Positions 14,088-64,000 of a stretch of 64,000 nt of DNA are shown piece after piece (position 1 is the stretch's first letter; each line of letters begins with the position of its first letter). Below the pieces are notes generated by a model. That model was not told the DNA's origin. It saw only the letters and a program-made list of their open reading frames with translations, and ran no database searches. Made by a program: the position numbers and the translations under genes. Origin of the DNA: Dendrophyllia cribrosa (Eukaryota; Cnidaria; Anthozoa; Scleractinia; Dendrophylliidae). The DNA lies in contig JAJLRJ010000003.1 of the NCBI GenBank assembly GCA_024195265.1, forward strand, positions 57,233,489 through 57,297,488. Direction: 5' to 3'.

Positions 14088-17000
14088 ATGGCGGACGATA
14101 TTTTGGTGGAGAAATTGTTCAATTATATTTGCGGTAGTGGTGGTTTTGTGGAAGTATCTGTTCTTTTAAAACATTCTTCGCCCTTGGGAAGTAGAAAATC
14201 AGAGCTGGAGGCAAGGAATTGGCTGAAGACTCAAACTGGTCGACGTTTTGCAGGTTTTGTCGTAGTGAAAGATTGTAATGGCGAAATCGCAGGTGTTCGA
14301 ATTGATTTGAGAAAGAAAATATGTCGACAGTATCGTGACAAAGGTTTTTGTCGATGGGCACAGGGGGAGTGTAAGTTTTGGCATATTTGTAAAGGCTTCG
14401 TTGAAGGAAACTGCGATGGAAAATGTAGCCGTTCACACAATTTCTATGACGGCGAAAACCACGACAAGACAAGAGAATTGGGATTGGATAAACATCCGAA
14501 CGGGACTGTAAAAAATATCGTTGTATGGAGCCTGCCACAGGTTTGTCAGTTGTATAAGAGAGGGAAATGTGTGTCGGATGAATGTATTTATCTTCACATT
14601 TGTGATCAAGCGGTCCAAGGTTCATCATGTAATTGTTCCTTGTCACACAATCTTACGGATTCTCGCAACAAGAAGATTCTCAAACAATATGATCTGATAC
14701 CGCATCAGTCGATGACAACTGAGTTTGTTCGTTGCAATATTATAGTTCCGAAGGAGCAGCAAGTTTTCGGTAAAAGCAGGTTTTCAAGCGAAGGTAGCAG
14801 TGCTGGTGATACAACATCAAGTCACGGTACTATAGAGTGCCAACACAACACACCAAAACAAGGTTCTTCCAGTAACATTTCGAGTAGTTCTAAACAGAGC
14901 GATTGCGAATGTAATTCGCTGGTGAATACCAGAAGCAAAAAGGAAAATCCCCAACCAAATTGTCAGCAAGATGAGTCAACAAAGACAAAGTCAATCTGTA
15001 AGCAACCTGATCTTGTTAACAATTTGGCAAACAATTCAATTTCGCCTCCTTCTGAGAACAAGCTTGAATTTATGAATATTCAAGCTGGAGAGGATTCTGA
15101 TTCGTCTTCTGACGACAACGAATCGGCAAATGTCAACTTCAAGACCGTTAAATCTATGAACGAAGATGATTTCAATGTTGCTAAGAGAAACCAACAGAAA
15201 TCTAAGATGCCCACGCCAAGCTCAAAGAGTGCGATGATAACGAATGTTGACGGGATTGAAAATGGTCAAAAAGGTGGTCAGTCTTGCAGTATGACACCAC
15301 AGAAAAGAGTTGAGGCGTCATGTGAGACAGAATACATCCAGTCGGCAAAGAAGGTAGAAACGTCATGTGACACAAAGGGTGTCCTGTCAGGAAATAACCT
15401 GAATGGAAATGTCAGGAAGAAAATTCAACAGAAATATATGATGCCTATACCAAGCTCGGACAATACCGTTAAGGCCAACATTAACGAGGTGAAAACAGAT
15501 CCAGAAAACTGTTTGGAGGCATCAGGTGACACGCAGGGCGTCCAGTCAGCAAATAAACTGGACGGAAATGCTGAGAAGAAAAGCCAACAGGCATCTAGGA
15601 TGACCGCGCCTAGCTCGGACAATACCGTTAAGGCGAACGTTAACGAGGTGAAAACAGATCCAATAGGTAGTAAGAAGCGGTTAGAGACGTCATGTGACAC
15701 AAAGCGCATACAATCAGCAAATAAACTGGATGGAAATGCTCAGAAGAAAGGCCAACAGGAATCTAAGATGACCACACCAAGTTTGAATAGTACCGTTAAT
15801 ACAAACGTTAACAAAGTTAAAACAGATACAATAGGTAGTAAGACACCTACACCACAGCAGAAACAGTTAGAAACGTCATTTGACGCAAAGAGCATCCAGC
15901 CAGCATGTGAAAAAATGGACCCACATGACGGGAAGATAGTCGAACAGCAGGAATCAAAGATGGCTACGCCAAGCTCGGATTGGACCATTACATCGAACGT
16001 TGTGAGAGATGAAAAGGATCCAAAGAGTGGCCGAATGCACAGTGCACCACAGCAGAAAGGGTTAGAGGCGTCATGTGACACAAAGGGCATACAATCAGCA
16101 AATAAAATGGATGGAAATGCTCAGAAGAAAGGCCAACAGGAATCTAAGATGACCACACCAAGTTTGAATAGTACCGTTAATACGAACGTTAACAAAGTTA
16201 AAACAGATCCAATTGGTAGTAAGACACGTACACCACAGCAGAAACAGTTAGAATCGTCATTTGACGCAAAGAGCATCCAGCCAGCATGTAAAAAAATGGA
16301 CCCACATGACGGGAAGATAGTCGGACAGCAGGAATCAAAGATGGCCACGCCAAGCTCGGATTGGGCCATTAAATCGAACGTTGTGAGAGATGAAAAGGAT
16401 CTAAAGAGTGGCCGAATGGACAGTGCACCACAGCAGAAAGGGTTAGAGGCGTCATGTGACACAAACGGCAACAAGTCAGCAAATAATCTGGACGGCCATG
16501 TCTCGAAGAAAGGCCAACAGGAATTAAAGGTGACCGCATCAAGCTCGGACAATACCGTTAAAGCGAACGTTAACGAGGTGAAAACAGATCCAATAGATAG
16601 TAAGAAGCGGTTAGAGACGTCATGTGACACAAAGGGCATACAGTCAGCAAATAAACTGGATGAAAAAGTTCAGAAGAAAGGCCAACAGGAATCTAAGATG
16701 ACCACACCAAGTTTAAACAGTACCGTTAAGACGAACGTTAAAAAGGTAAAAACAGATCCAATACGTAGTAAGACACGTACACCACAGCAGAAACTATTAG
16801 AAACGTCATGTGACGCAAAGAGCATCCAGCCAGCATGTAATAAAATGGACCCACATGAGGGGAAGATAGCTGGACAGCAGGAATCAATGATGGCCACGTC
16901 AAACTCGGATTGGGCCATTAAATCGAACGTTGTGAGAGATGAAAAAGATCCAAAGAGTGGCAGAATGCACAGTGCACCACAACAGAAAGGGTTTGAGGCG

Positions 17001-18736
17001 TCATGTGACACAAACGGCAACAAGTCAGCAAATAATCTAGACGGCAATGTCTCGAAGAAAGGCCAACAGGAATCAAAGGTGACCGCACCAAGCTCGGACA
17101 ATACCGTTAAGGCGAAAGTTAAGGAAATGCCAAAAGATGCAAAGTCTGGCCAATCACACAATAGAGCAAAGGAAAACTGTTTGGAGGCATCAAGTGACAC
17201 AAAGGGCGTCCAGTCAGGAAATGCTAAGAAGAAAAGCCAACAGGCATCTAACATGACCACGCCTAGCTCGGACAATACCGTTAAGGCGAACGTTAACGAG
17301 GTGAAAAAAGATCCAATAGGTAGTAAGAAGCGGTTAGAGACGTCATGTGACAAAGGGCATACAATCAGCAAACAAACTGGATGGAAAAGTTCAGAAGAAA
17401 GACCAACAGAAATCTAAGATGACCGCGCCATGTTTGAACAGTACCGTTAAGACGAACGTTAACAAGGTAAAAACAGATCCAATAGGTAGTAAGACACGTA
17501 CACCACAGCAGAAACGGTTAGAAACGTCATATGACGCAAAGAGAATCCAGCCAGCATGTAAAAAAATGGACCCACGTGACGGTAAGAAAGCCGGACGGCA
17601 GGAATCAAAGATAGCCACGCCAAGCTCGGATAGGGCCATTAAATCGAACGTTGTGAGAGATGAAAAGGATCCAAAGAGTGGCCGAATGCACAGTGTACCA
17701 CAACAGAAAGGGTTAGAGGCGTCATGTGACACAAACGGCAACAAGTCAGCAAATAATCTGGACGGCCATGTCTCAAAGAAAGGCCAACAGGAATCAAAGG
17801 TGACCGCAGACAATACCGTTGGGGCGAACGTTAAGAAAATGGAAGAAGATGCAAAGGTTGGCCAGTCACACAATGGAGCAAAGGAAAACTGTTTGGAGGC
17901 ATCAGGTGACATAAAGGGCGTCCAGTCAGCAAATAAACTGGACGGAAATGCTAAGAAGAAAAGCCAACAGGCATCTAAGATGACCGCACCTAGCTCGGAC
18001 AATACCGTTAACGAGGTGAAAACAGATCCAATAGGTAGTAAGAAGCCGTCCGAGTTCAAAGTCTTTGAATGTTTGTGCAAAGATTATGACTGCTCCGCTT
18101 CTTTTCCGGTGATTTGTAAACGAACGGATTTATTTCCTCCTGAATTTAAGAGCGTTGAATCTTGGTTTCGTAAAAAGAAAGGCAGCTTTCTAATCACAGA
18201 AGACGACCAAGGAATGATCTCCCAAGTGGACGCTTATTCTACAAAGGCACGTCTATGTTTGAGTTACAACAACGCTTATCATGGGCAGTGCAAGAGAGAG
18301 AACTGCTCGCATCTGCATGTCTGTAGGGAGTTCATCACTGATTCCTGCAGCAAAGGAGCAACGTGCCCGCGAAATCACCACTTCCAAGATCAGCGAGACA
18401 AAGTTATACTGTCAAAAGATAAACTTGACCAGTTAACAGACGAACAACTCCGCAAGCTTGTGCTTTCATCGACACCTCAAGTCTGTGTAGAGTACAATAA
18501 TGGCATGTGCGATCGGGGTGAATCATGTACTAAAATACACATGTGCAGCGATCATTTGAAAAAGTGCTGTAGAGAGGGGTATGGCTGTAGTCTACTTCAT
18601 GACGCGGCCTTGAATACTGAACACGCTCAAGCAGTTCTTGAACGTTATGAGCTGGGCCGGTTTAATTTAGATATTGTGAAGAGAATTATTCTAGTCTGTT
18701 ACCAGTCCAAGGAGTCCACTGAAAGAAAAGATTTAG
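14088..18736 (+). CDS. Gene A exon 1: module 1, repeat linker, module 3
   Basis: Residues 1 to about 215 form module 1: a winged-helix-like segment (LVEKLFNYICGSGG to GVRIDL) and four CCCH fingers beginning at ICRQY, ICKGF, VCQLY and ICDQA, each ending in a His (FWH, SRSH, YLH, SLSH). A repeat linker follows (about 15,180-18,045), then module 3 (from FKVFECLCKDYDC) with fingers at LCLSY, VCREF, VCVEY and MCSDH. Module 2, present in B and C, is absent. A 2-nt loss (GTGACAAAGGG instead of GTGACACAAAGGG) near 17,350 breaks the frame. The exon ends TTTAG|GCAAGT, a GC donor; the GT four bases on would lead to a stop four codons into the next exon. Confidence 0.8.
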
Positions 18737-21700
18737 GCAAGTGTTATATATATATATATATATATAGACATAAAAAAAGTGTTAACGTATGTAATCATTA
18801 ATAGACGAAATGTATGGTATCTTATATATTATTTTATGATAATGGTCTTAGGAACAAAACAAACAACATATGACAACAATGAAGAGTATGAAGCGTTTAT
18901 ATGTGATTTCCAGTTTTACCCTTTTCTTCTTATCCTTAGGGCTTTTAGTGCCAGTGCATTACGTTATATTCATGTTGTTTACTCTTGTTTCAACAGACCA
19001 CATTCTTAAGGATAAGCCAGATGCACCCATCTGCTCTGATTTTCTTCTTAGCAAATGTAAGAATGGCTCGAAGTGTCCAGGTCATCACTGCTCTTTGCCT
19101 TTCTACTGGCAATACACCGATGAGGGTGGATGGAATAGTTTTTCTAAGGAGGACAACGAGATGCTGGAAAAACAGTATTGTGATGTGAAATTCGAGGAAT
19201 GCTCTGCCACAGGCTTTCAACTTTCATTTGAAAGGCAAGTTATGCCATGTGCATAAACAAATCAATAATCACCCAATTATCCACCCATTCCATTTAGTCA
19301 GTCCTTTACTCCATATAATCTATATAGAATAGTGATCAATCTTAACAGGTCTCTTGTCATTGGAGGTCTCCACTCATGGAAGGTAGAAAATATGTTGTTT
19401 AGCTTCTGAAAATTGTAATATTCAGATGAGTTACGTGACAATTGAAAAAACGTTAAGATTAGTTTAAGAAATCTGACATAAAATCATGTGCAAACCTTCA
19501 TTTCTTTAGCTGATTATTGACCAAGGAAAACCCACAAACTTGAAAAAGAGAATCTATACCAATTTAATCACTGTAATATTAAATAAGACGACGATCCCCA
19601 CAAGTTGTATCCAAAGATGATATCTGTCAACTTTAGAGGTACTATTTGTTTATAAGTAACATAATAATCAATTGGCGAAAAGCTTGGTTGCCTATTGTGT
19701 AATATTGTTGTATTCAAGTAGTTTTGTCCTTAGAGTGCTATATCCTGGATATAAAGAAGGTAGTAAAATATGTCAGTTTTTTTGTAACCCATACCTTACT
19801 AAATAGTAACAATTGACCTAGTCAATCATTTTCTAACTGTTCTGTTCTGTTGGTATATACACATTTCCTGACTTCCTGCCTATGTGAACACAAACGAGAG
19901 ATCTGATCAAACCTATTGTCTTTTTTATAGGTCCCAAAACGCTAACCTGCAAGCTAACAAGCAACAAGGGAAAAATTCAAGAGGTCCGAATGTACCAAGC
20001 CACTGGTCTCCAATGCCATCTTCAACGCAATATAAACGTGTTCCGTTAGCGCCACTATCTGACGAATTTACCGAGGTGGAGGAACTTTTCAGAAAATCGA
20101 TCAGACGAAGCGTGGTGACCATCAGCATTGAACGTGTGCAGAACCCTTTCATGTGGGAGAAGTATCAAAGGTAGTTTATTAATTTAGTTCAATCTTCCCT
20201 AGTATTCTGTGGGCTTCAAATTTGCGAGTAGTTCATTTTGTGTACTCAGTAAATACCATAATTAATTTTCTCTTAAAAAGAGGAAAACATAATGTTTTGT
20301 AAATATGAAATACAACTGTTCGAGTTGGGTTGACTAAAGTAAAGTTCTAGTAACGAGCCTTAGTTGTGTCACATACGAATCACGAAATGTTCGTTTGGAA
20401 CCTAAATCTACAATTATTTTGAACTATCCAGAAGAACTCTCGAATAATATCGAATACAACACAACTACATCTTTTAGGCTATCAACTTAGAACTATTACT
20501 ACTACGGAATCTGAACAATCAATTGGTAAAATTGGCAAAAAATATGTGCCTTTGGCAACTGCTTTTAGTTGTAGCTCAAAGCGCATGCTGCTTGGTCGAA
20601 ACACATCAGCTTGTGAAACTGTTCATCTGTTGTCCGAGACTAACAATATATAGCTATTCTTAACGTGAATAAATTATTATTTTTTTTAAGGAAAAAAGAC
20701 AATATGTCAGTTGCCAAGACTGATAGTACCAAGCGAGCTCATGTCAATGAGATGCGATTGTTTCATGGAACCGACCCTGACATCGTGGAGGCCATCTGCA
20801 AGCAGAATTTTGACTGGCGTTTACATGGGAAGAACGCGACCAAATACGGACAAGGTAGCCACTTCGCTTTAAGTTCCTCTTACATTGACTCTTACGCTAA
20901 GGAAGACTTAAATTCGTCTAAGTTTATGTTCATGGCCAAGGTTCTTGTCGGTTTGTATACTACTGGTCACTCCGGTTATCGAAGGCCACCACCAAAGAAC
21001 CCTTCAGATCCCGCGACCGATCTGTACGACTCGTGTGTAGATGACAGATCATTTCCAACCATTTTCGTCGTCTTTGATACGGATCAGTTCTATCCAGAAT
21101 ACATCATCGAATACTCGACAGTTTTCCAAACAGTTCAAGATGGATATTACAGTGGTCTTCAGCAACCAGCTGTAGCAGCGGCACCTGCTCCAAAGTGGCC
21201 TAGACATTCTCAAGAAGCAGCAGCACTGCCACAAGCTGTTCTAACGCAAAGCAGTAGTTTCACCACACGTCATCACACGCCGACAAGCTCGAGCGTTCTT
21301 GGCACATCAGCTTATTCAAGCGGGTCAAGTGGTACAGGCTATAGCGCAAGTAGCACAAGTAGCACGAGTACACCATACACTGATACGTCAACTGCGTCTT
21401 ATCCTTCTCCTGTCTCAGGTACGTCCGCATTTCCTGGTGTTTTAAGTCGTTATGTTTCCTCGACTTCAAGTACCCCGACTAGCGTACCATACCACAATAC
21501 CGCAAGTACATCCACCACACGTACAGCACTAGCAGCAGCAGCAGCGGTAGCAGTAGTACCGCCACGAACTTTTCAAGATCAGAAAAATAGCACAACCACA
21601 CGTCATCAAACGCCGACAAGCTCGCGTTTTCTTGGCACATCGGCTTATTCAAGCGGGTCTAGTGATACAGGCTATAGCGCAAGTAGCACAAGTAGCACAA

Positions 21701-22446
21701 GTACACCATACACTGGTATGTCAACTGCGTCTTATTCTTCTCCTGTCTCAGGTACGTCCGCATTTTCTGGTGTTTCAAGTCGTTGTGCTTCCTCGACTTC
21801 AAGTACTCCGACTAGCGTACAATACCACAATACCGCAAGTACAACAGTAGCAGCTGCAGCAGCAGCAGCACCGCCACGAGCTTTTCAAACTCAGAGCAGC
21901 AGTTCGATCACAGGTCATCATACGCCGACAAGCTCGAGCGTTCTTGGTACATCGGCTTATTCAAGTGGGTCAAGTGGTACAGGATATAGCGCAAGAAGCA
22001 CAAGTACACCATACACTGGCACGTCAACTGCGTCTTATTCTTCTCCTGTCTCAGGTACGTCCGCATTTCCTGGTGTCTCAAGTCGTTATGCTTCCTCGAA
22101 TTCAAGTACCCCGACTAGCGTACCATACCAAAATACCGCAAGTACATCCACCGCACGTACGTCACTAGCAGCAGCAGCAGCAGTAGTTGCACCGCCACGA
22201 GCTTTTCAAGATCAGAGAAGTAGTACAGCTACACGTCATAACACGCTGACAAGCCCGAGTGTTCTTGGCACATCAGCTTATTCAAGCGGGTCAAGTGGTA
22301 CAGGCGGTTACTCCTCTGCATCCAGTGCACGATACTATAGCACAAGTAGCACAAGTAGCACAAGTAAACCATACACTGGTACGTCAACTGCCTACGAAAC
22401 CAAAACGCCAAAGAGGTCCTCTAAACACAAATGTTTAGTTATGTGA
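14088..22446 (+). CDS. Gene A: ZAP/PARP12-like CCCH-PARP protein, frameshifted
   Basis: Exons are 14,088-18,736, 18,997-19,234, 19,931-20,170 and 20,691-22,446. Order of parts: ZAP-N-like module 1, a long Lys/Ser-rich repeat linker, module 3, a fifth CCCH finger with the first half of WWE1, a connector ending MWEKYQR, a PARP catalytic domain, a Ser/Thr-rich repeat tail and the CaaX box CLVM. All junctions are in frame and the total is a multiple of three if a 2-nt deletion near 17,350 is allowed for (about 2,294 residues). As written, exon 1 stops at 17,417 after 1,109 residues. By family, the fingers bind RNA and the PARP domain transfers single ADP-ribose units, but the catalytic Tyr is His here (triad H-H-I), so activity is doubtful. 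WWE2 is missing. The ATG lies in AAGATGGCGG and aligns with the starts of B and C. It may be a live truncated gene, a pseudogene, or carry an assembly error. Confidence 0.8.
15180..18045 (+). repeat. Coding tandem repeat array in gene A
   Basis: Units of roughly 38-45 codons recur with variations, marked by QQESKMTTPS, TVKANVNEVKTDP, LEASCDTKG, SANKLDGN and KMDPHDGK. The QQ(E/K)SKMT(T/A)P-SLNSTV type of unit recurs at about 15,750, 16,128, 16,676 and 17,399, so longer blocks were also copied. The peptide is hydrophilic and Lys/Ser/Thr/Gln-rich, probably disordered. Gene C has about one such unit (59,025-59,170) between modules 1 and 2. Long antisense open frames in this array are shadows of the repeat. 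Confidence 0.85.
18748..18765. repeat. (TA)n microsatellite in intron 1 of gene A
   Basis: An alternating TA run begins 11 bases after the GC donor. The B copy has only ATATATACAC at the same place. Confidence 0.7.
18997..19234 (+). CDS. Gene A exon 2: fifth CCCH finger and WWE1 first half
   Basis: The acceptor is TTTCAACAG|ACCAC. The exon encodes HILKDKPDAPICSDFLL, a CCCH finger (C-x7-C-x5-C-x2-H) and the LPFYWQY...W segment typical of the ZAP/PARP12 ZnF5-WWE unit. In vertebrate ZAP this unit binds poly(ADP-ribose). It starts in phase 1 and ends in phase 2 at TTTGAAAG|GCAAGT, a second GC donor. Using the nearby GT instead would give a stop in the next exon. Confidence 0.75.
19577..19639 (+). 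pseudogene. Relic of the WWE2 exon in gene A
   Basis: About 63 bp match the 3' end of gene B exon 3 (44,748-44,810): AGACGACGA(T/C)CC, GTTGTAT(C/G)CAAAGATGA and ATCTGTCAACTT are shared. In the B frame the A copy ends in a TAG where B has AAG. The rest of the exon and the preceding WWE exon are gone. The neighbouring exons share phase 2, so A can still splice exon 2 to exon 3 in frame. Confidence 0.75.
19931..20170 (+). CDS. Gene A exon 3: connector before the PARP domain
   Basis: The acceptor is TTTTTTATAG|GTCCC. The exon encodes a polar segment, then PLSDEFTEVEELFRKSI and ISIERVQNPFMWEKYQR, the helix that leads into the catalytic domain in PARP12-type proteins. It is phase 2 at both ends and finishes at TATCAAAG|GTAGTT. 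Gene B exon 4 is its close counterpart. Confidence 0.75.
20691..22446 (+). CDS. Gene A exon 4: PARP domain, Ser/Thr-rich tail, CaaX
   Basis: The acceptor is TTTTTTTAAG|GAAAAAAG. The catalytic domain runs from about NEMRLFHGTD to FYPEYIIEYS. The triad positions are His (CAT, 20,764-20,766), His instead of Tyr (CAC, 20,860-20,862, in GQGSHFA) and Ile (ATT, 21,061-21,063, in TIFVVF). The Ser/Thr/Ala-rich tail is built of four repeats. The last four codons encode CLVM after a basic stretch (PKRSSKHK), a CaaX prenylation signal; a terminal Met favours farnesyl transfer. The stop is TGA at 22,444-22,446. Confidence 0.8.
21255..22400 (+). repeat. Four-copy coding repeat in the gene A tail
   Basis: A unit of about 105-112 codons marked by TPTSSSVLGTSAYSSGSS, STSTPYTGTSTASYSSPVSG, TSAFPGVSSRY and Ala runs begins at about 21,255, 21,590, 21,895 and 22,210 (the last is shortened). 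Gene B has a single copy. The repeats are Ser/Thr/Ala/Gly-rich and probably disordered. Confidence 0.8.
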
Positions 22447-23306: not shown

Positions 23307-23312
23307 CAGGTT

Positions 23313-25015: not shown

Positions 25016-25022
25016 TCGTAAA

Positions 25023-38205: not shown

Positions 38206-38289
38206 ACTAAAACGACGACTTCCTCAGCGTACTCCCCTTGGGGTTAAATGGTCGTTTTCCTGGAATCCACTGAGGCAACGGAAGTTGTC
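38206..38289 (+). promoter_or_regulatory. Conserved inverted-repeat leader of gene B
   Basis: It has the same nested arrangement as before gene A: AAAACGAC...GTCGTTTT, CCCCTTGGGG inside, and ACGACTTCC...GGAAGTTGT outside. The right arm contains CGGAAGT (ETS-type core), about 20 bases before the ATG. Confidence 0.45.
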
Positions 38290-38306
38290 ATTTCCAATCG
38301 TCGAAA

Positions 38307-42800: not shown

Positions 42801-45800
42801 GGAATGTTAAAGAAGTAGAAGTTTGTTGTCCTATTTCAGGGCAGTTTCTTGGTGTTGCAGGTGTTGTGATCACCAAGTATATATATATGTATATGTAAAT
42901 TTAGAGCATTATACAAAGTCTCAATGCTCTTACAATAAACTATATAAAACCTAAAAATCTAAAAACTAAAAATCTAAATCTAAAAATCTAATATAAAACC
43001 TAAAAATCCAACAACAAGATAACTATAACCTGTAATACTGTAAAATACTGCTATAATACAACAATAATATTCAAGAATAATAACATTAAAAATCACAAAT
43101 TAAAAAGACGTAAAACAAAAGATTCAAATGACAATGAACAATACTCACAACACAACACAATAGCTAATGAACAATGGTTTCCATAACACCAAGAAATACC
43201 CCATTTCAGATTGATCATGTGACATTCTCTAGAGAATTAAAGAGAAATAGATTATTGCAGTTATGCAGCAGCTGAAGGAGTTGCAAGTTAAGGCTGAAAA
43301 AAAAATTCAGGCCTCGACGAGATTCCAATCCATGACCTTTGCGTTTCCGATGCAAACGCTCTACCACTGAGCTGCTAGGCCAGTTGGAAGCTTGGCCAAT
43401 TGTGAGTTCTAGAGAATTGTTCCTTTATCTTTCTAAAAAGTAAACATTTACAGCCCAATTCTCTATAGTAACATCACATGATCTTAAATGCGACAACAAA
43501 CAAAGGAATCTCAAATTGTCTATTCATATGGATAGAATACAGATAATAACAGTAAAAACCCGCATATAAGAACCTAAAGATTTAAGAACCTACAGGCTGA
43601 AATTTGGCATTTTAATACTCAATTTTATAAGAACCTGTTCAGCCTGGCGAGAAAAAAGAGGATCTTATACAAAAGATCACTCCAATTTCGATTATCAAAA
43701 TTCTGGATATTAACTGTATGTGAAACCTCTAACAAAAGTCAGCAAGCATTCTGACTGTTATTATTTAGCTAGGCAAGCATATGTTTGTTATTCAAACTAG
43801 TTCTAAACCATTATGTACTAGTAGTGTAATATTTCTGTGAATGGTTATGCTACGGCAGACTCTGAAAAATATAAGAACCTATTAAAAACCTAATCAGCCT
43901 GATTTGTCAAAAAGTACCCTGAAATATATAAGAACCTGTTCAGCCTGATCTCGAAAATTCTAGGTTCGTATATGGGTTTTTTTACTGTATACCTTGCTGT
44001 AGGCTGAATTTACAGGGGCAAACAGCGAACTTCTCACAATCGCCATGTACTTTAATGTACCTTGCAGGCGTTCCACCTGTTCTGATTTCTTCAGTATATG
44101 TTACAGCAATTACAATTCTTGGAATAAGATGCTCATAACAACAACCTAGGCCTTTTATAGATGACTGGAAATCAATAACAATAGAATTGAATGAAAATAA
44201 TACTTCGAATGTTACCCAAAGCTACTGATGGCTCTCCTCGTGGATAACACTAGCAGTATCTATTTAAGATAAGCAGTAGCGCCAACGCTGTCTATGGGTA
44301 TATTAGAACATGAAAAGCGGGAACAAAATTTATGGCGATTGATAGTAATAGCATTATTCCATCCGTGCCTTCTAGACCATGGATAGTAACAACGGTATTC
44401 TTAGCTTTTGTACTCCTGATCATATTGCCAATACTTTTTATGTGTTAACTGTAGAGTATAGCACACGTGTGTTGCCGCCCAATTAAGTTGTTGTGACAAT
44501 GCAATTTGTCGTTTGGCACGAACAAGCCAATCGAAATCCTTGATTCTTACAGCATATTTATTTATATTTATTGAGGAGTAATAACGGATATTTTCCATTC
44601 ATAGGGCAAAGATCTCCAACGTTGTCTAGAGGAAGCCTTCTTAAACAAGAGAAATTACTTCAGGTTTCAGGTTGCAGGCCAGGATTACACATTGACCTTT
44701 GTTCCAGCGAGTGACATGAGCCAAATAAACATGAAGTATGGTACCACAAGAAAAGTAAGACGACGACCCGCGAAAGTTGTATGCAAAGATGACATCTGTC
44801 AACTTAAGAGGTACTGTTTCTTTCTAAGTAACATAATAATCAGTTGGCGAAAAGCTTGGTTGTCTGTTGTGTAATGGTGTTGTATTCAGGCCCTTGTCAC
44901 ACAGACCTAAGATTTTTTCATTTGGTCAGTTCTAGAAGCTTTAAGGTGGCTCCAAGTAGTTTGTTTTTGGGTCACTCTTCCCTTTTTGAATGCGCTTATA
45001 CATAATCTTACTTTAGCTCAATAAATCTGAATTTGATACCAGATGTTAGGCTTGGATGAAAGTTTTGAGTTTCCCTTTTTATGCTAATCGGCGTGTCCAT
45101 AGCAACGGTAAACAAATATGGCGAAAAACAGTTTTTCCTAATTGTCTTTCGATTTTGGGGCTACCTGCAACAAGCGAATAAATGCGCTATAATCTACACA
45201 GTCTAGCACACTAAATGGGAAAATTTCAAACAAATTAAACTGTTCGATTTTGAATAAATCGCTGAAACATTTTTAACACGTGTTTTTTCATGTTTGAAAT
45301 GTAAGAGGTCAAAACATTCCATAGGTCTCACAAATTATCATTAAATTACCACAGAAAGTTTCCTCAGACTTGAATTATTACTCCCTGCAAATAGCTCTGA
45401 CTAACTCCTCGGCAATAAAGAGAACGAGCTTTTCATTCGAATGCAGTTTTGCTTGACGTTTTTACTCAGTTTTTTAAAATGAGCATGAAAAGAGCATCAT
45501 CCAAAACTTTCATCCAAGCCTAACATCTGGTATCAAATTCAGATTTATTGAGCTAAAGTAAGATAATGTATACGCGCATTCAAAAAAGGAAGTGTGACCC
45601 AAAAAAAAACTACTTGAAGCCACCTAAACATAGAAACATTCATTTGTATTAGCTAGCATTACCAAACAAAAAATTAAACGAAAGGCGCGTTTTTGTAGTA
45701 TTAATAATCTCTTTCGATAAACTTGTGCCATAACAGCTGCCCCAATGGTTTATTTTGTTTAATTACGAAGTTTTAAGGTTAAGGCTGTACGAACGTTTCC

Positions 45801-47907
45801 GATCATTTTCCGAAATTTTTCGAACATTTCCGAAGACGTCCGAAGATTTCCGAGGACAAGACACCATCATTTTTTTATGCGTGACCTTACTTAACAGTAG
45901 TAATTGAACTTCTCGATCATTTTCCTACTGTTCGGTTCTGTTGGTTTATAAACATTTCGTGACTTCCTTCCTATGTGAGCACAAACGAGAGTTCTGATTA
46001 AAGTTATTGGGTTTTTTTTTGTAGGTCCCAAAACGCATTTCCTGCTACCAAGCAACACGGGAAAAATTCAAAAAGTCCGAATGTGCCAAGCCACTGGTCT
46101 CCAATGTCATCTGAAACGCAATATAAACGCGTTCTGTTAGCGCCACTATCTGACGAATTTACCGAGGTGGAGGAACTCTTCAGAAAATCGATCAAAGGAA
46201 GTGTGGTGATCATCAGCATTAAACGCGTGCAGAACCCTTTCATGTGGGAGAAGTATCAAAGGTGGTTTATTAATTTAGTTAAATCTTCCGTAATAAACAT
46301 TTTCTTACACACAAGAAAAGTTGTGACTTCAGTATTTTGTGCGCTTCGAATTTGCGAGTATTCCATCTTGTGTACTCAGTAATTACCATGATTAATTTTC
46401 GCTTGAAAGGAGGAAAACGTAACGTTTCAGGTGTAAACACGAAATACAACTGTTTTTGTTACGTCGACTGAAGTGAAGAGTCTTAGACCTGTTGACGATT
46501 TGAGGTCTTTATTGCGATCGACTGACTCAACTCTCAACTTGAACTCAAAATAGACATAGCTTCCGAGCACGAGGTCTATCGCTCGGGGAGAACAAGTAAC
46601 GAGCCTTGGTGTGTCGTATACGAATCGCGGAATGTGCGTTTGGAGCCTAAATCTACACTAAATTCTCTTGAACTATCGGGGAGAACTCTCGAATAATCTC
46701 GAATTCAACACAAAGACATCTAGGTTATCAACTGAGAACTATTACTACTTCGGAATGTTAAAACTCAAATGGTAAACTGGACAAAAGAAAGATGTGCTTT
46801 TGGCTACTTGGTCAAAACACATCAGCTCGTTAAACTGTTCATTTGTTGTCCAAGATTAACTATATATCGCTATTTTTAACGTGACTAAATTATATATTTA
46901 TTTTATTTTTAAGGAAAAAAGACAACATGTCAGTTGCCAAGAGTGGTAGTACCAAGCGAGCTCCTGTGAATGAGATGCGATTGTTTCACGGAACCGACCC
47001 TGACATCGTTGAGGCCATCTGCAAGCAGAATTTTGACTGGCGTTTACATGGAAAGAACGCGACCAAATACGGACAAGGTAGCTACTTCGCTTTGAGTTCC
47101 TCTTACAGCGACTCTTATGCAAAGGAAGACTTCAATTCGTCTAAGTTCATGTTCGTGGCCAAGGTTCTTGTTGGTTTGTATACTACTGGCAACTCCAGTT
47201 ATCGAAGGCCACCATCAAAGAACCCTTCAGATCCCGCGAGCGATCTGTACGACTCGTGTGTAAATGATAGATCACCTCCAACCATTTTTGTCGTCTTTGA
47301 CACTGATCAGTTCTACCCAGAGTACATCATCGAATACTCGTCAGTTTCCCAAACAATTCAAGGTAATTTTCAGCAACCTGCAGTAAGGGTACCTGCTCCA
47401 AAGCCTAGACATTCTCAAGCAGCGGCAGCAACGCCGCCACGAGCTTTTCAAGCTCAAAGCATTACTTCAATTACACGTCATCGCCCGCCGACAAGCTCGA
47501 GCGTTCTTGGCACTTCGGCTTATTCAAGCGGATCACGTGGTACAGGTGGTTACTCCTCTGCATCCAGTGCACGATACAATAGCGCAAGTAGCACAAGTAC
47601 ACCATACACTGGCACGTCAACTGCGTCTTATTCTTCTCCTGTCTCAGGTACGTCCGCATTTTCTGGTGTCTCAAGTCGTCATACTTCCTCGAGGACAAGT
47701 ACTCCGACTAGCGTACCATACCACAGCACCGCAAGTACATCCACATACACTGCATACACTGGTTGGTCAAACGATCATTCTGCCTCAGCATCTACTCCTC
47801 ACAGTTCCAATCCGCGTTCTTCAAGCTCGCCAACCAGAAGTTCTCCTCACAGTGGAACAACGCAAGAGAGATCCTCTAAAAACAAGAGAAAATGCTTAGT
47901 TATGTGA
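38307..47907 (+). CDS. Gene B: ZAP/PARP12-like CCCH-WWE-PARP protein
   Basis: Exons are 38,307-39,801, 42,391-42,734, 44,605-44,810, 46,025-46,261 and 46,914-47,907. They join in one frame to 1,091 residues. Order: module 2 (about 10-225), module 3 (about 268-490), fifth CCCH finger (about 510-530), partial WWE1, WWE2 (about 575-680), connector, PARP domain (about 775-905), Ser/Thr-rich tail, CaaX (C1088-LVM). The triad is H786-Y818-I885, the pattern of mono-ADP-ribosyltransferases of the PARP10/12 group. By family it should bind RNA through the fingers, ADP-ribose through WWE, and modify proteins with single ADP-ribose units, probably on membranes. Module 1 is absent; the start (AAAATGGCGG) lies directly before module 2, behind a promoter like that of gene A. 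Of the three genes it is the only complete and uninterrupted one in the window. Confidence 0.85.
39870..40795. mobile_element. Foldback element with tRNA-like sequence in each arm
   Basis: The left arm (39,870-40,330) and right arm (40,370-40,795) are inverted copies over more than 400 bp: AGTAGTGTAGTGCCATTGGA, ATTAATTTATGGAGAATAAA, TTGTTTACAT and AAGAAGCTATTCTTTTTGGA all recur as complements. Near the centre each arm has a tRNA-like sequence (40,213-40,288 on plus and about 40,386-40,455 on minus). It lies in intron 1 of gene B. Confidence 0.75.
40213..40288 (+). tRNA. tRNA-like sequence in a foldback arm (probably not functional)
   Basis: TTTAGCTCAACGGGTAGAGC matches a tRNA D-arm/box A, and CAGTTCGAGTCTG matches a T-arm/box B. 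The acceptor ends (GGCTTTA and CGCTCC) pair poorly and the anticodon arm is not clear. A T-run follows. A diverged inverted copy is at about 40,386-40,455. Confidence 0.35.
41024..41495. mobile_element. Inverted-repeat element, TGCTGTGTTCACACTAGG ends
   Basis: The left end TGCTGTGTTCACACTAGG is matched by CCTAGTGTGAACACAGCA at the right. Internal AAACATGTTT motifs recur. It lies in intron 1 of gene B. Confidence 0.7.
42391..42734 (+). CDS. Gene B exon 2: fifth CCCH finger, truncated WWE1, WWE2 start
   Basis: The acceptor is TTTCAACAG|GCCAC. The first part matches gene A exon 2 and gene C exon 2 as far as ATGFQ. The sequence then jumps to RRLSTDSYVTDPGNTMATEW, which in gene C belongs to exon 3. 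About 36 residues that complete WWE1 in C are missing. WWE2 then starts (WIWYWKDENEVWRKYGQ). The exon ends in phase 0 at ACCAAT|GTAAGT, a standard donor. Confidence 0.8.
43310..43381 (-). tRNA. tRNA-like gene or SINE head, 72 nt
   Basis: On the minus strand, a nearly paired acceptor stem (GGCCTAG with CGAGGCC), a perfect D-arm (GCTCAGTGGTAGAGC) and a T-arm-like GGATTGGAATCTC are seen, and a T-run follows immediately, as for a Pol III terminator. The anticodon stem (TTTGC/GCAAA) would enclose a 9-base loop with CGG, so the identity is not certain. It may be a tRNA pseudogene or SINE head. Confidence 0.45.
43549..43989. mobile_element. Tc1/mariner-type MITE in gene B intron 2
   Basis: ACAGTAAAAACCCGCATATA and AGAACCTA at the left pair with TAGGTTCGTATATGGGTTTT and TTTACTGT at the right. 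AGAACCT(G/A) recurs inside. No transposase is present. Confidence 0.7.
44605..44810 (+). CDS. Gene B exon 3: second half of WWE2
   Basis: The acceptor is TTCATAG|GGCAAAG, phase 0. It encodes LQRCLEEAFLNKRNYFRFQV, AGQDYTLTF and INMKYGTTRKVRRRP, the second half of a WWE domain with its usual basic end. It ends in phase 2 at CTTAAGAG|GTACTG. Only a 63-bp relic remains in gene A. Confidence 0.8.
44943..45626. mobile_element. Long-TIR element in gene B intron 3
   Basis: The ends AAGGTGGCTCCAAGTAGTTT and AAACTACTTGAAGCCACCT are inverted, and the pairing extends about 130 bp inwards (ACTTTAGCTCAATAAATCTG, CCAGATGTTAGGCTTGGATG). No transposase is seen. Confidence 0.75.
46025..46261 (+). CDS. Gene B exon 4: connector before the PARP domain
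   Basis: The acceptor is TTTTTGTAG|GTCCC. It is the counterpart of gene A exon 3 (PLSDEFTEVEELFRKSI, VQNPFMWEKYQR), one codon shorter. It is phase 2 at both ends, with donor TATCAAAG|GTGGTT. Confidence 0.8.
46914..47907 (+). CDS. Gene B exon 5: PARP domain, tail, CaaX
   Basis: The acceptor is TTTTTAAG|GAAAAAAG. Triad codons: His CAC 46,987-46,989 (RLFHGTD), Tyr TAC 47,083-47,085 (GQGSYFA) and Ile ATT 47,284-47,286 (TIFVVF). A single Ser/Thr-rich tail unit follows. It ends NKRKCLVM, a CaaX box behind a basic stretch. The stop is TGA at 47,905-47,907. An ATTAAA about 160 bases further on is a possible polyadenylation signal. Confidence 0.85.
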
Positions 47908-57929: not shown

Positions 57930-60819
57930 ATGACGGACAATGTTTTGGTTGAGAATGTCTTTAACTATCTCTGCGGCAGTGGCGGTTTTGCCGAAGTGTC
58001 AGTTCTTTTAAAACATCCTTCGCCCTTGGCAAGCAGAAAATCAGAGTTGGAAGTAAAGAATTGGCTGAAGACTCAAGTTAATCGGCGTTTTGTCGTAGTA
58101 AAAGATGGCAATGACGAAATAGCAGGTGTGCGAATTGATTTGAAAAAGAAAATATGTCGGCAGTACTATGACAAAAGTTCTCACATGTGTTCTTGTCGAC
58201 TGGCACAGGGGAAGTGTAAGTTTTGGCATATTTGTAAAGACTTCATTGAAGACAACTGCACTGGGAAATGTGGCCGTTCACACGATTTCTTTGACGATGA
58301 AAACCACGACAAGACAAGAGAATTGGGTCTGGATAAATATTCAAACGCGACTATAAAAACTATTGTTGTCTGGAGCTTGCCACAGGTTTGTCAGTTGTAC
58401 ATGAGAGGCGAATGTTTGTCAGCAGATAAATGTTTATATCTTCACGTTTGTGCTCGAGCCGTCCAAGGTTCATCATGTAATTGTTCCTTGTCGCACAATC
58501 TTCTTACGGATTCACACAACAAGAGGATTCTCAATCAATATGACCTGGTGCCACCAGTTCACCAGTCAGTAACAACTGAGTTTGTCCGTTGCAACATTAT
58601 AGTTTCGAAGGCGCAGCAAATTTTCGATAAAAGAAAATTTTCAACCGAAAGTATAAATACTGCTTCAGATGGAGCGCTGGGTATCACATCAGACAGCGAA
58701 GGAACATCAGCACAACCAAGTCACCGTAACATAACACAACAAGATTCTTTCAACAACATTTCTATTTTTTCCAAACAGAGCAAACCCGAATGCAATTCGC
58801 AGGTGGACACAAGAAACGAAACGAAAAAGTACCAGCCGAATGGGCCGCAAGATAAGACAACAAAGCCAGAGCCAAACTGTAGGCAACCTGATCTTGTTAA
58901 CAATTTGGCAAACAATTCAATTTCTTCTCCTTTTGAGAACATTCTTGAATTTATGAATATTCAAGCTGGCGAGGATTCTGATTCGTCTTCTGACGAAAAC
59001 AAATCTTCAAATGCTACGGAGAAAAGCCAACAGGGATCTAGATTGACCGCACCAAACTCGGAGAGTGCCGTCACGATTAAAGCAAACGTTAACGAGGTAG
59101 GAAAAGATTCAAAGGTTGGCCATACGCAGACGCAACTGCAGAAACGGTTAGAGGCGTCATCTGATACTGTGAAAACGCCAGTATCGTCCAGTGATTTACC
59201 CAGCGACTCTGCCAGTAAAGATGTGATGGACAGTGACTTTTCTAATAAGGACTCCTCAAGCTGCAAAGAGTCGCACAGGTTGCCAGCGTCACAAGGTGTA
59301 GAAGTGGGTCGCCAAAGAAAGTTATCCGTTCACAGTTCTTGTTGTTCGCTTCAAGAGCTGGATATATGTATTCCTTCCAAAAAGGCTGTGTTTGACTGCA
59401 TTGTGAAGGAATATAATGGCACTGTGCCCTTTGATGTCATTGTAAAACGACATGATTTGTTTCCTCGCGGATGTGGGGATATTGCGAAGTGGTTCAGAGC
59501 CAAAAAAGATAGCTTTTTACTCAGGGAAAAGGGGGGCAAAATTTTGGAGGTTAATGTTTTCTGTCGAAGGGCACGGTTTTGTTTCAATCAGAAGTGCTCG
59601 AAAAAGGATTGTATGTACTTCCATGTGTGCAGGGAGTATATCTCTGGTTTCTGCAGATTTGGGTACGGTTGTTACAGAAATCACAGTTTTCAATATGATG
59701 AAGATCGAAAGTTAATCTCCAAACTCAATTTGGGTGGTCTGTCAGAAGAAAACCTCCGTAAAGTTTTACAGCTCTCATTGCCTCAAGTGTGTTTGGACTA
59801 CAATGACGGATGCTGTACAAGAGCTCTGTCTTGTACCAAGATACACGTTTGCAAGAATTTTATCAAGAAGAGGTGTCAAGACGAAGAAGATTGTGGACTG
59901 CAGCATGAAAGCGCATTTGCCGAAACTCAAACAAATGCCATACTTCAGAACTATGGTATGAAAATCAAAGACAACAACGTAAATCACGTTCTTAGAACAC
60001 TGTTGGTTTGTGAGAGCATTTCTAGTGGTTTGAAAGACAACACTGCTGCAAAGAACGTGACCAGTAAAGAAACCAACCACGACCAGCCCATTCCGTCTAA
60101 AGGAGCAGCTGCTGTGAGCAGTCGTGAGCCGACTGAGGTAGAAGTCTTTGAATGCCTGTGCAAAGATTACGACTGCTCTGCTTCTTTTCTGGCGATTTCC
60201 AAACGAACAGATATATTTCCTCCTGAACTTACGAACGTTGAATCTTGGTTTCGAAAAAAGAAAGGTAGTTTTCTTATCACAGAAGACGACCAAGGAATGA
60301 TCTCCCAAGTAGACGCGTATTCCACAAAGGCACGTCTGTGTTTGAGTTACAACAACGCTTATTATGGGGAGTGCAAGAGGGAGAACTGCTCGTATCTGCA
60401 TGTCTGTAGGGAGTTCATCACCGATTCCTGCAACAGCGGAGCAACGTGCCCGCGGAATCACCACTTCCAAAATCAGAGGGACAAAGCTCTACTGTCAAGC
60501 GTTAAACTTGACCAGTTAACAGACGAACAACTCCGCAAGCTGGTGCTTTCATCGACACCTCAAATCTGTGTAGAGTACAACAATGGCGTGTGCAATCGGG
60601 GTGATTCATGTACTAAAATACACATGTGCAGCGATCATTTAAAAAAGTGCTATAGCGAGGGGTATGCCTGTAGGTTACTTCATGAAGCAGCCATGAATAC
60701 TGAACACACCCAGGCAGTTCTTGAACGTTATGAGCTGGGCCGGGTAAAATTAGATCATTTGAAAAGAATTATTCTGGTTTGTGACCAGTACAAGGAATCG
60801 TCTAAAGGAAAAACCACAG
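57930..60819 (+). CDS. Gene C exon 1: ZAP-N-like modules 1, 2 and 3
   Basis: Module 1 starts VENVFNYLCGSGG, with fingers at ICRQYY, ICKDF, VCQLY and VCARA. A Ser/Gln-rich linker contains one unit like those amplified in gene A (QQGSRLTAPN, IKANVNEVGKDSK). Module 2 starts KKAVFDCIVKEYNG; module 3 starts VEVFECLCKDYDC. The exon ends AACCACAG|GCAAGT, a GC donor in phase 1, as in A and B. Confidence 0.85.
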
Positions 60820-63800
60820 GCAAGTGTTTTATAAATATCTTTTATGATAAAAATATGTCAATGAACGGTAGTTGTATTATCTCAACAAATATTTTGGAAC
60901 ATAATCTAAGGGCAAAAACCCATAAGTGGGTTGAAACGTGCAACTGTCTCTTGTGCGCTTCAAAACAAGCTTCCGATTATTCAATTTGCTAACAAGTTGT
61001 TACAGCCATATTTGGAAAATCAAGATAAAAATATTAACCAATCAATTCGCTAGAACAACTTGCTGCCAATCTCCCTGGACTGAGGGGTTTCCAAATATGG
61101 TACGAAGCAAAAGATGAATATTCGGAAGCTTTGAATGCGCGTTACACGTTTCAACCCACATATGGGTTTCTGATAAGGGTTATAGTTTGATCTTTGTGAA
61201 GTTAAGCTTAAAGGCAGTGTGTGCTCCATAAACTAATTGAGCATGTTACACTTACTAATCTGTGTAAATATCAGTCTGATATGTTGAATATTCTCGGAGA
61301 AATCAGCTTCAAAACCTATGAAATGTACAGAGAATGTTTGGCTGGATGGCAAGACTTTTTACGGTTCATTTCTCGAAAGTTAGTTAACATATGAAGTTTA
61401 AATTTCTTAAAACAGTGGCAGATCCAGGGGGAGGGTCAGGGGGATCCGGCCCCCCTATCAATCCTGTGTTTTTTGTTTTTATTTTATTTATTTATTTATT
61501 TATTTATTTTTTACTACTTGCTTGACACTGAAATTCTTGCATATCACTATTCAAAGGTCGATATTGTTTAAAGTGCCCCTATGATCAAATTTTTGATTTT
61601 GATTTTTTTACATTTTCGTGTTCTATTAGACTTTTTTACTCATCTTGTCAAATTTTAATCCATTACGAACATCAGAAGTCATTTTATTTTAACATTTATT
61701 TCCGAGAATTTACGGCCGCCATTAATCAACCTTGTTCCAAGGCTTGGTTGCGAATGGGAGAAAGTGACGTCAAAGACTCAAACATACCTCACGGGTTGAA
61801 ATTATAAAAACAATCAGCATAGAAAATTGCACGAAGAACAAGTTCAAAGTTTTTGTTGCTTTTCGTGTGATTTTCAATACTTATTGTTATTATAATTTCA
61901 ACCCGCAATCTGTGTCGACAGATCACATTCTTGTGGATAAGCCAGATGCACCCATCTGTTCAAGTTTCCTTCATGGCAAATGTAAGAATGGCTCAAAGCT
62001 TAAGTGTTCAGGTCATCACTGCCCTTTGCCTTTCCACTGGCAATACAACGATGAGGGTGAATGGAAGAGTTTTACCGAGGAGGACAACGAGAAGCTTGAA
62101 AAACTGCATTGCGACGTGATGCTGGAGGAATGCTCTGCAACGGGCTTTCAAATTTCATTTGAAAGGCAAGTTATACTAAGTGCATAAGATATCAATATAA
62201 TTACTCATTCTTTCTACTGTCAGTCTACAGTAGTGATCATACTTAAGGTCAAATCTATTTTTATAGATAGAAAAACGATAGAAGAAAAGACATTGTAGAT
62301 ACCGGTATCATCGTTCCTTTTTCCATGTTTTTAACCCGTGAATACGCGCATGCGTAATGAACGGGTTATCGGTAACGGTGACAGATATGCAAATGAGCAC
62401 TCACTCGCTCCTTACATCAGCTGTAAACTTTTCATTATTATTATTATTATTTTTATTGCTGTATTACACTACTCATTACATGTTTTAGCTATAAACACTA
62501 ATACAATTCTTACGATACGCTTACATGTCACGCTTCTAACATAGATACACTTATTAACACTACACTTACTTATTAATTAATTAGACTACACCTACTTATT
62601 AATACTACACTTAAGTATTAATTACTAACAATAAAATTAAAATTAATAACGTTCACAGACACGCATACACACACGTTAAATACATTCATTAGTTATGACA
62701 CCTTATAAAGGATATTTTACAGTTTTCTTTCAAACTATATATCATATGTATTATATTGTCCATTTTAAAAAAGTTTGTAGCTAATAGAAACACCAAAATT
62801 ATAACGGAGACAGTAACGGAGACAGATATGCAAATGAGCGATAACAATAACTAAATTGTTGTTAACGAATATAAACAACAATTGAAGCTTAGATGTTTCG
62901 CATTTGGAGTCTTTCATGCAACATTAAAATCGATCTAAAAGGATTTTTCAACCGAGACACGGGTTTTGATGCGTATCTACCTTGAAGTAATTGAATTTAT
63001 CCAGTTTTAAGTCAGTGATCCCGGTGGCCGAGTGGTTTAAGGCATGGAATGACAACCGAAAGACCCGAGGTTTAATTCTCGCTCGGGACCTCCCCTTTTT
63101 TTCTCTTTTTTTTTCTTTCTTCTTCGGACTGAACATTATAAAAGCGATGTATTGCATTTTTCTTTTTGCGTTTGTCAAAAATCCTATTTACGTTAAATTT
63201 AAAAAAAATTTTGAACCGTGTCAGTGTGAAAACATAAGCTTACCGCAATATTGCGTTACGGGTTAGCATTTCTTATTCACGGATTGGCTCTTAGGAGCCT
63301 TTGATTTAAAATTCAAATGAGTTGTTTGACAAAAACGTGACCACTTACAGTGTGTGGTATATGTTTGTTTACAAAGTACAACAAATCTGACGTTTGAAAT
63401 TAGAATAACTCCAAACATATATATATTTTTGTTCAGTTATTCCAGATGCCATAAAGAATAACGGAACAAATGACAAGAGTACCTTGGAAAGGAAAACACG
63501 AAGTTGGCCACATAACGTTTCTCCAAAAATAAAACAAATGTATAACATAAAATTAGAATATTGAGCAATTGAAAATTGAAAACTGGAAATTACTGTCCTG
63601 TTTACATGGCTAAAAGGTGTCTGCATATTAACCTCAGACCGATGCGATGTAAACTCATGTAATAACGCTCATTTTGTCGTTAATAAATTGACCAAAAAAC
63701 ATTTGAAAGAAAAAATCTATTTCAAGTTACTCACAATATTCACACTGAATTTAAGAGTCCTTTGACGAAAATAAACCATGGGGGAAAATCACTTAAAATG

Positions 63801-64000
63801 TATACAGTATATATCTGGTATTTTCTTATAATATTTTAGTGATAGATTTCTGCTCCTTGACGAGAGGTATGACGTTAATATTCTGCTGGACAATAAGCTA
63901 ATGATTATACAGAAAGATTTCGACGTCCTGGCCCAATTAAGGCGCCTCTCCACAGATTCTTACGTCACTGACCCAGGCAACACGATGGCTACTGAGTGGA
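57930..64000 (+). CDS. Gene C: three-module ZAP/PARP12-like protein (cut by window end)
   Basis: Exons are 57,930-60,819, 61,922-62,165 and 63,840 to beyond 64,000. The ATG at 57,930 aligns with the starts of A (MADDILVEK against MTDNVLVEN); the frame is open 34 codons further up, but that lies in the inserted element. Exon 1 encodes 963 residues with modules 1 (about 1-225), 2 (about 480-700) and 3 (about 733-955), so twelve CCCH fingers. Exon 2 gives the fifth-type finger and WWE1 start; exon 3 completes WWE1 and enters WWE2. The PARP domain and tail lie beyond the window. It looks intact and may represent the ancestral layout from which A lost module 2 and B lost module 1. Confidence 0.85.
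60913..61172. mobile_element. hAT-like MITE, copy 2 (gene C intron 1)
   Basis: It is nearly identical to 4,367-4,624 and in the same orientation (AAACCCATAAGTGGGTTGAA at the left; TTTCAACCCACATATGGGTT at the right). TAAGGG lies on both sides (60,907-60,912 and 61,174-61,179). Confidence 0.8.
61173..61921. other. Rest of intron 1 of gene C
   Basis: It contains CAGTGGCAGATCCAGGGGGA (from about 61,414), which resembles the end of an inverted-repeat element whose partner was not found, and an (ATTT)n microsatellite (about 61,480-61,510). Confidence 0.4.
61922..62165 (+). CDS. Gene C exon 2: fifth CCCH finger and WWE1 first half
   Basis: The acceptor is TGTGTCGACAG|ATCAC. It encodes HILVDKPDAPICSSFLHGKC, a finger with two extra residues before its third Cys (KLKC), and LPFHWQYNDEGEWKSF. 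It ends TTTGAAAG|GCAAGT (GC donor, phase 2), as in gene A. Confidence 0.8.
62166..63839. other. Intron 2 of gene C
   Basis: It holds a direct repeat (GTAACGG(T/A)GACAGATATGCA, at about 62,371 and 62,811) and a tRNA-like sequence at 63,016-63,090. Nothing else is supported. Confidence 0.5.
63016..63090 (+). tRNA. tRNA-like sequence, degenerate
   Basis: GATCCCGGTGGCCGAGTGGT contains a good Leu/Ser-type box A, GAGGTTTAATTCTC resembles a T-arm, and the acceptor ends (GATCCCG, CGGGACC) pair at six of seven positions. The anticodon arm does not fold and the long variable arm of Leu/Ser tRNAs is missing. A T-run follows. Probably a tRNA-derived SINE head or pseudogene. Confidence 0.35.
63840..64000 (+). 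CDS. Gene C exon 3: end of WWE1, start of WWE2 (partial)
   Basis: The acceptor is TATTTTAG|TGATAG. In phase 2 the frame reads DRFLLLDERYDVNILLDN, KLMIIQKDFDVLAQL, then RRLSTDSYVTDPGNTMATEW, where the window ends. The first part is the segment that gene B lost and the second matches gene B exon 2. Confidence 0.75.

Follow-up and report, generated by a model that had tools for sequence, protein, structure and literature searches.

The present study concerns a stretch of 64,000 nucleotides from the coral Dendrophyllia cribrosa (the window, C16:57233489-57297488, in a genome of 627 Mb and 22 contigs) and the three tandem genes A, B and C that it holds, all on the forward strand and all related to ZAP and PARP12. 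Gene models were built from open reading frames, splice phases and mutual homology. Each gene carries serial modules of the ZAP N-terminal type, a winged helix followed by four CCCH zinc fingers, and these are followed in order by ZnF5, a WWE region and a C-terminal PARP domain (PF00644 in A and B, a homologous exon in C). The vertebrate form has exactly one such module; there are two to three in A, B and C, and four in a neighbouring gene, Z. We consider it likely that an ancestral form with modules 1-2-3 gave rise to A and B by deletions, that segments were then exchanged between copies, and that the products are membrane-tethered, multivalent RNA-binding mono-ADP-ribosyltransferases.

Module homology and gene structure

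An earlier note on this DNA had assigned the modules to the ZAP/PARP12 family and proposed profile and structure searches of each. The assignment was confirmed by sequence and profile matches and, for module 3, by a predicted fold. The matches go well past what chance would give. In PDB sequence searches with phmmer, ZAP chains were the top matches for A module 1 (human ZAP 6uei, 1.6e-5) and for the part of B exon 1 that runs through module 2 (6uei, 9e-11). C module 3 as a single sequence gave no ZAP match in the PDB sequence search, but a profile of 10 module 3 sequences does match ZAP (1.2e-8), and a profile of 12 module 1 sequences matched it across the winged helix and all four fingers (5.8e-14). 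ZAP entries also led the matches to the predicted fold of module 3, in which the winged helix is present. Judged by sequence, the genes of the window belong to the ZAP/PARP12 family. Modules of the same number are, as the note had claimed, far more alike between genes (85-97% nucleotide identity among A, B and C) than different modules within one gene (24-39% protein identity in best local alignments within C).

Gene C has the three modules ascribed to it, all in its first exon (57930..60819; zf-CCCH_PARP12, 6.5e-8): module 1 (57930..58625), module 2 (59370..60023, 88% identical in amino acids to B module 2 by tblastn) and module 3 (60126..60800). ZnF5 and the first half of WWE1 follow at 61922..62165 (gene model and Pfam), and the second half of WWE1 with the start of WWE2 lies at 63840..64000 in the gene model, cut by the end of the window. 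Beyond it the gene extends to C16:57301344, and the spliced protein of 1602 amino acids has no internal stops and ends in CLVM. Gene D, at C16:57182705-57223231, likewise has modules 1-2-3, both WWE regions, a PARP domain and a CLVM end, encoded in six exons (2257 amino acids, no internal stop). Both WWE regions are whole in C and D and truncated in A and B.

Gene B carries modules 2 and 3, also in agreement with the note. Exon 1 (38307..39801; zf-CCCH_PARP12, 1.5e-6 for the exon) holds module 2 (38334..38993) and module 3 (39105..39782, 83% identical in amino acids to C module 3 by tblastn). In the next exon (42391..42734; Pfam WWE, 8.8e-5), ZnF5 is followed by half of WWE1, which continues in frame into the first half of WWE2. 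The gene model then places the second half of WWE2 at 44605..44810 and the first PARP-domain exon at 46025..46261, and the catalytic exon (46914..47907; Pfam PARP, 7.5e-21) retains the catalytic Tyr and continues into a Ser/Thr-rich tail with the CaaX end CLVM. The whole gene comprises five exons and 1091 amino acids without internal stops.

Gene A begins with module 1 (14088..14768, found also by tblastn with C module 1), followed by a linker of repeat units of about 168-192 bp (14769..18042, from repeat and frame reading). Module 3 (18043..18717, tblastn) abuts the linker directly, with module 2 absent, and its frame differs from that of module 1. An exon with ZnF5 and the first half of WWE1 lies at 18997..19234 (Pfam WWE, 7.2e-6; splice sites), and its phase fits the first PARP-domain exon at 19931..20170. 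The catalytic exon (20691..22446; Pfam PARP, 5e-17) ends in a Ser/Thr-rich repeat tail and CLVM. Within that coding tail, 21262-22305 is a 333-bp tandem repeat of 3.2 copies, to which the tail of B aligns about once per unit. In all of A, B, C and D, intron 1 starts with a GC donor; GC-AG introns stand at corresponding places in the tandem copies (A 18736, B 39801 and C 60819, and also A 19234 and C 62165).

Module loss and exchange between copies

The alignment of A with D runs at 93.7% identity over module 1 and the adjoining linker, passes into the repeats and continues where A 18044 joins D 57186126; A therefore lacks module 2 and the last part of the linker. Further downstream A resumes at 19586 against D 57197114, so that about 7.7 kb of D, with the exon for the second part of WWE1 and first part of WWE2 and most of the next exon, has been lost from A. 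What is left there is a remnant of the last WWE2 exon (19586..19748, aligned to D 57197114-57197284), which contains a stop.

The alignment of B with D begins just ahead of module 2 (B 38320, D 57185364). The region upstream of B (38002..38306) is common with A up to 38289 (80-82% identity to A 13325-13457 and 13910-14045), and the first 13 coding bases of B, ATGGCGGACAATG, match the module 1 starts of A, D and C at 11, 12 and 12 of 13 places. They are followed by CGAATAAGTG, as precedes module 2 in D. We read this start region as a deletion junction, for which the 13 bases alone would be weak and to which the upstream region shared with A adds. About 0.5 kb of D (57189082-57189587) is also missing from B, whereby the two half WWE domains were joined in frame.

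That A and B descend by module loss from a form with three modules, as the note had proposed, is well supported: D is collinear with them outside the deletions, B carries the junction, and proteins of 1-2-3 order occur in other corals. The local ancestor would have had modules 1-2-3, ZnF5-WWE1-WWE2, an H-Y-I mono-ADP-ribosyltransferase domain, a Ser/Thr-rich tail and a CaaX end, an organization kept by C and D. We take H-Y-I to be the name of the triad of PARP12-type mono-ADP-ribosyltransferases; its residues are present in B, C and D. Deletion of module 2 and most of the WWE region would have produced A, deletion of module 1 and part of WWE1 would have produced B, and later exchange between copies would have mixed segments. 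Nucleotide identities are mosaic in this manner. A and D share 96.7% in module 1, B module 2 is nearer to C (91.4%) than to D (87.0%), A module 3 is nearer to B (96.6%) than to D (92.3%), and the PARP exons of B and D share 94.2%. These mosaic segments point to exchange between copies, and because segments have been exchanged no single whole-gene branching order is given.

Such gene-to-gene exchange would also serve the opposite history, in which one- or two-module genes came first and fusion or unequal crossing-over between A- and B-like genes then built C. We regard this gain of modules as highly improbable, since D has three modules without internal stops and another three-module locus lies on C3, since the 1-2-3 order is found in both coral suborders with modules grouping by number, and since fusion would leave unexplained why a module-1-like start and an A-like upstream region stand before module 2 of B. 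We also considered whether A and B had arisen separately from single-module genes, and rejected this in view of D, the deletions and the coral module tree.

Modules 1 and 3 of A were found as the note described them, but a working protein with both was not borne out. Near 17347-17356, in one repeat unit of the linker, a 2-bp deletion has changed the GACACAAAGGGC of sister units to GACAAAGGGC. After this frameshift the 5' frame stops at 17417, and module 3 is out of frame with module 1; the related linker of D is open throughout. In addition, the catalytic Tyr of A is replaced by His (GQGSHFA), a change seen in none of the other seven PARP exons compared from the neighbourhood (those of B, C, D and Z and three PARP-only exons). 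Together the frameshift, the WWE loss and the Tyr-to-His change suggest decay or a pseudo-enzyme. The ratio of nonsynonymous to synonymous substitution (dN/dS) was computed by the Nei-Gojobori method for 45 pairs (10, 10, 15 and 10 for modules 1, 2, 3 and the PARP exon), and the A-D values of 0.55 for module 1 and 0.44 for the PARP exon are the highest of their tables. On balance A is probably a decaying pseudogene or a truncated decoy of module 1 plus repeats, rather than a working 1+3 effector, a view to which the 7.7-kb deletion and the stop in the remnant exon also contribute. Against this, the modelled exons of A are open apart from the frameshift, their phases are compatible, the CaaX end is retained and dN/dS is below 1; furthermore, the 2-bp indel is read from the assembly and may reflect an allelic difference or an assembly error, or may be removed by splicing.

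The cluster and its relatives

Genome searches returned 28 matches for module 1 and 27 for module 3, the latter grouped into 11 loci. Eight of these 11 lie within C16:57.07-57.44 Mb, a cluster of which 57.060-57.316 Mb (12.5 kb of it N) and single pieces beyond were read. Z has four modules, D and C three each, and A, B and B' two each; three are found at each of two reverse-strand loci and at one locus on C3, and one at each of the two others. The three genes named in the earlier note are thus present, but as part of a larger set, and its figure of one to three modules was too low, with one to four per locus here and up to five in relatives.

B and B' are 99.3% identical across 1852 bp, and the two reverse-strand loci are 99.7-100% identical over two blocks of 7.66 kb and 98.8% over 1.3 kb. 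This near-identity would be expected if some copies were assembly duplications (uncollapsed haplotypes) and the true cluster were smaller, which we consider possible but rather doubtful. For A, C, D and Z the module searches returned no near-identical duplicate, the stretch before B' (ending 8.8 kb short) matches that before B in only two pieces of 300-459 bases at 93-95%, and the module sequences of A, B, C and D are 3-16% apart. The reverse-strand pair (L011 and L012, C16:57360865-57363813 and 57434088-57436838, minus strand) forms a second subfamily of near-identical copies, each with two module-1-like domains and one module-2/3-like domain; the open frame of L012 lacks the beginning of its first module. 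Z (C16:57067584-57094759) has module 1, a fourth type, module 2 and module 3, ends in CLIM, and resembles four-module coral proteins such as Oculina P0030. That protein ends in CVIS, the letters given for the end of human ZAP-L in PMC8568172, which like PMC8102003 and PMC12204182 is cited here from excerpts.

With residues 1-960 of C as query, 93 proteins were found, and their module types were called by the window's profiles, which label the fourth type 'M3'. All three types are carried by 61 of the 93, in plain 1-2-3 order in 50; when only near-full-length calls are counted, the figures are 53 and 44. P0023 and P0025 have five modules each. Species-named members belong to Porites, Montipora, Acropora, Stylophora and Oculina. 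Three modules, WWE, PARP and a Cys four residues from the end are combined in proteins of Porites lutea (1630 amino acids, CLVM) and Montipora (1388, CSVM; 1395, CSIM). The same three or four modules with WWE, PARP and a Cys-a-a-X end are seen in P0013 (Porites lutea, 'uncharacterized'), P0050 and P0051 (Montipora, deposited as 'zinc finger CCCH-type antiviral protein 1-like') and P0030, all four being deposited predictions.

The phylogeny that the note had proposed was run with corals, lancelets and vertebrates (73 modules, LG+C20, 230 columns; 14 of 70 inner branches weak). Modules 1, 2, 3 and the fourth type each cluster across coral species, by number and not by gene. The suborders Refertina and Vacatina are both represented among the 1-2-3 proteins, by Porites lutea and Stylophora pistillata, so that three modules were probably present before these corals diverged. 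The note's description of a young, diversifying set therefore fits the tandem copies only; the modules themselves are old, being common to all five named genera, and neither the dN/dS values nor the variability of fingers 1-2, both given below, bears out diversification.

A single domain, which the note gave as the vertebrate state, is found in 88 of the 111 proteins P0098-P0208, nearly all of them vertebrate, but PARP12 of the lancelets Branchiostoma belcheri and B. lanceolatum (P0109/P0110) has two adjacent modules. As in the corals, these stand before WWE-WWE-PARP (P0109); the lancelet protein differs in having two modules and no CaaX end, and its module 1 is tied to coral module 1 by the tree alone. 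A protein search from lancelet PARP12 gave 3 matches. Lancelet module 2 scored 167-179 bits with the profiles of coral modules 2 and 3, against 101, and lancelet module 1 showed no preference for coral module 1 (103 bits, against 110-114 for module 2). A single clade of lancelet modules was rejected (p 0.028; 0.0225 without vertebrates), for a grouping that had been noticed in the tree before being tested. The tree program flagged the join of lancelet module 1 and coral module 1 as a meeting of long branches, and a clade of coral module 1 with the vertebrates was not rejected (p 0.098). Lancelet module 1 and the vertebrate module can be placed only with uncertainty, and a two-module ancestral gene is possible. 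We put forward tentatively, as a reading that falls just short of probable, that stacking is ancestral, with at least two distinct module types in a single PARP12-like gene, a winged helix and a CaaX end before the cnidarian-bilaterian split, that vertebrates were reduced and that corals keep a multivalent, non-CpG form. Weighing against it, a single clade of coral modules was not rejected either (p 0.063), a topology that would place the origin of coral stacking inside the cnidarians. The comparison suggests that the single domain of ZAP may be what is left of an older arrangement with several domains.

Two-module fish proteins (P0099, P0100, P0101, P0104 and P0108) were set aside as examples of stacking: their module starts lie 652-747 amino acids apart, about a whole PARP12, and they are probably fused tandem genes. 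In a search with residues 495-870 of B, anemones, octocorals and molluscs are not among the best 120 of 854 matches, which shows no absence. Searches of the open-licence PMC literature, with the excerpts of PMC8102003, PMC8568172 and PMC12204182, turned up no account of module stacking for either corals or lancelets.

Further features were recorded around the genes. Three related PARP exons lie outside the window on the minus strand (C16:57100333-57099965, 57162972-57162616 and 57228927-57228517); they are 56-60% identical to B and end shortly past the domain, with no tail and no CaaX, and minus-strand WWE-like fragments are found at 57062611, 57175947 and 57231437. Between A and B is a broken retroelement of the long-terminal-repeat type (24161-27337, minus strand) with separate open reading frames for an integrase core (PF00665), an H2C2 zinc-binding domain (PF17921), a reverse transcriptase (PF00078) and DUF7041. 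A 248-amino-acid open reading frame at 7324-8070 on the minus strand contains several hydrophobic segments and matches no Pfam family at 0.01.

Membrane anchor, RNA specificity and function

The C-terminal CLVM of A, B, C and D and CLIM of Z belong to a wider pattern. Among 122 proteins (the best 120 of the 854 matches to residues 495-870 of B, with P0064 and P0088), a strict CaaX end is present in 56, corals, ray-finned fish, lungfish and a bird among them, and a Cys at position -4 in 11 more, which include Montipora, Acropora, Oculina and Acanthaster; 55 have neither. In the excerpts cited, the antiviral activity of ZAP requires the CaaX cysteine (PMC8568172), and a 2025 study places the gain of the CAAX motif and of the helix-turn-helix domain in tetrapod ZAP (PMC12204182). 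Because CaaX ends occur in corals and fish and coral module 3 has a winged helix, we argue that both features are older in the family than tetrapod ZAP, while PMC12204182, as excerpted, speaks of the ZAP lineage.

The His and Tyr of the catalytic triad are kept in B, C, D and Z. The motifs read LFHGT, GSYFA and YPEYIIEY in B, C and D, and GSHFA in A. The altered triad of ZAP proper is thus not seen in B, C, D or Z.

The long isoform of ZAP (PARP13, ZC3HAV1) has the same winged helix and four CCCH fingers, ZnF5, two WWE domains, PARP and CaaX, but one N-terminal module where the coral genes have two to four, and its PARP domain is inactive. ZAP exerts its antiviral activity with TRIM25 and KHNYN as cofactors. 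Vertebrate PARP12 shares the domain order and the PARP family, with residues 495-870 of B matching PARP12-named proteins at 34-40% identity among the matches listed; it differs in having one module, and the coral proteins have a long Ser/Thr-rich tail past the PARP domain.

We propose that each module would grip a stretch of single-stranded RNA, and that several modules on flexible linkers would provide avidity for long or multi-site RNA. With their basic residues the modules may still bind RNA. Prenylation of the CaaX cysteine would anchor the protein at endomembranes that serve as sites of viral RNA translation or copying, and the enzyme domain might then mono-ADP-ribosylate nearby proteins or recruit effectors. 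The family, the CaaX end and the cluster expansion together suggest that the function is probably antiviral.

Several observations weigh against the overall reading, module loss included, or limit it. The module-1-like start of B consists of only 13 bases. The fold support concerns module 3 alone, for which one of five models was confident (76.0 vs 42.7-50.5). According to the text available from PMC8102003, the key CpG contacts of ZAP are K89, Y98, K107 and Y108. In a MAFFT alignment whose numbering places these four at the human positions, the residues in the window's seven modules are K/R at 89, G/F/K/S at 98, S/G/H/Y/P/M at 107 and R at 108, so that only the basic residue at 89 is shared with ZAP. 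Among 62 coral modules, Y98 occurs in 3, K107 in 4 and Y108 in 0. CpG is not depleted in the window (observed/expected 0.93), and the ratio is 0.79 in the B coding sequence. CpG sensing of the ZAP kind was rejected on these grounds: with most of the contacts missing and no depletion of CpG, a rule of the mammalian type is unlikely, and the self/non-self logic of ZAP is not simply transferable. Additionally, pairwise dN/dS lies between 0.05 and 0.55 in all 45 comparisons. Hypervariable fingers were considered as a sign of an arms race, and there was no clear entropy excess in fingers 1-2: mean column entropy there was 0.83, 1.00 and 1.06 for modules 1, 2 and 3 (63-67 rows each), compared with 1.01, 1.00 and 0.97 in the winged-helix part and 1.04, 1.20 and 1.18 in the remainder (fingers 3-4 and linkers). 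Neither these low dN/dS values nor the even variability is evidence of an arms race. Finally, human PARP12 was inactive against HIV-1 in one study (PMC8568172, excerpt).

The same purifying selection and even variability would suit housekeeping RNA or stress regulators of the PARP12 kind with no antiviral role, and human PARP12 likewise lacks the CpG contacts (PMC8568172, excerpt). We think such a role unlikely, since tandem expansion with recent copies (B and B', the reverse-strand pair) and repeated module loss look more immune-like than housekeeping, and the Cys-a-a-X end has been retained in A, B, C, D and Z.

ZAP is known as an antiviral RNA sensor with one four-finger domain, whose membrane tether and winged helix are presented as late gains in the excerpts of PMC12204182. 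The Dendrophyllia cluster and its coral relatives place two to five such domains serially in one protein, with CaaX ends, in a region that is not CpG-poor. This raises the questions of what ZAP-like domains read where CpG cannot mark RNA as foreign, and of what stacking adds, for which the cluster offers a natural deletion series of 1+3, 2+3, 1+2+3 and a four-module form. If stacking is ancestral, the winged helix and CaaX end of ZAP would have been inherited, and would not be tetrapod gains as the excerpted 2025 study (PMC12204182) proposes, and corals would still use the multivalent form with an RNA specificity other than CpG.

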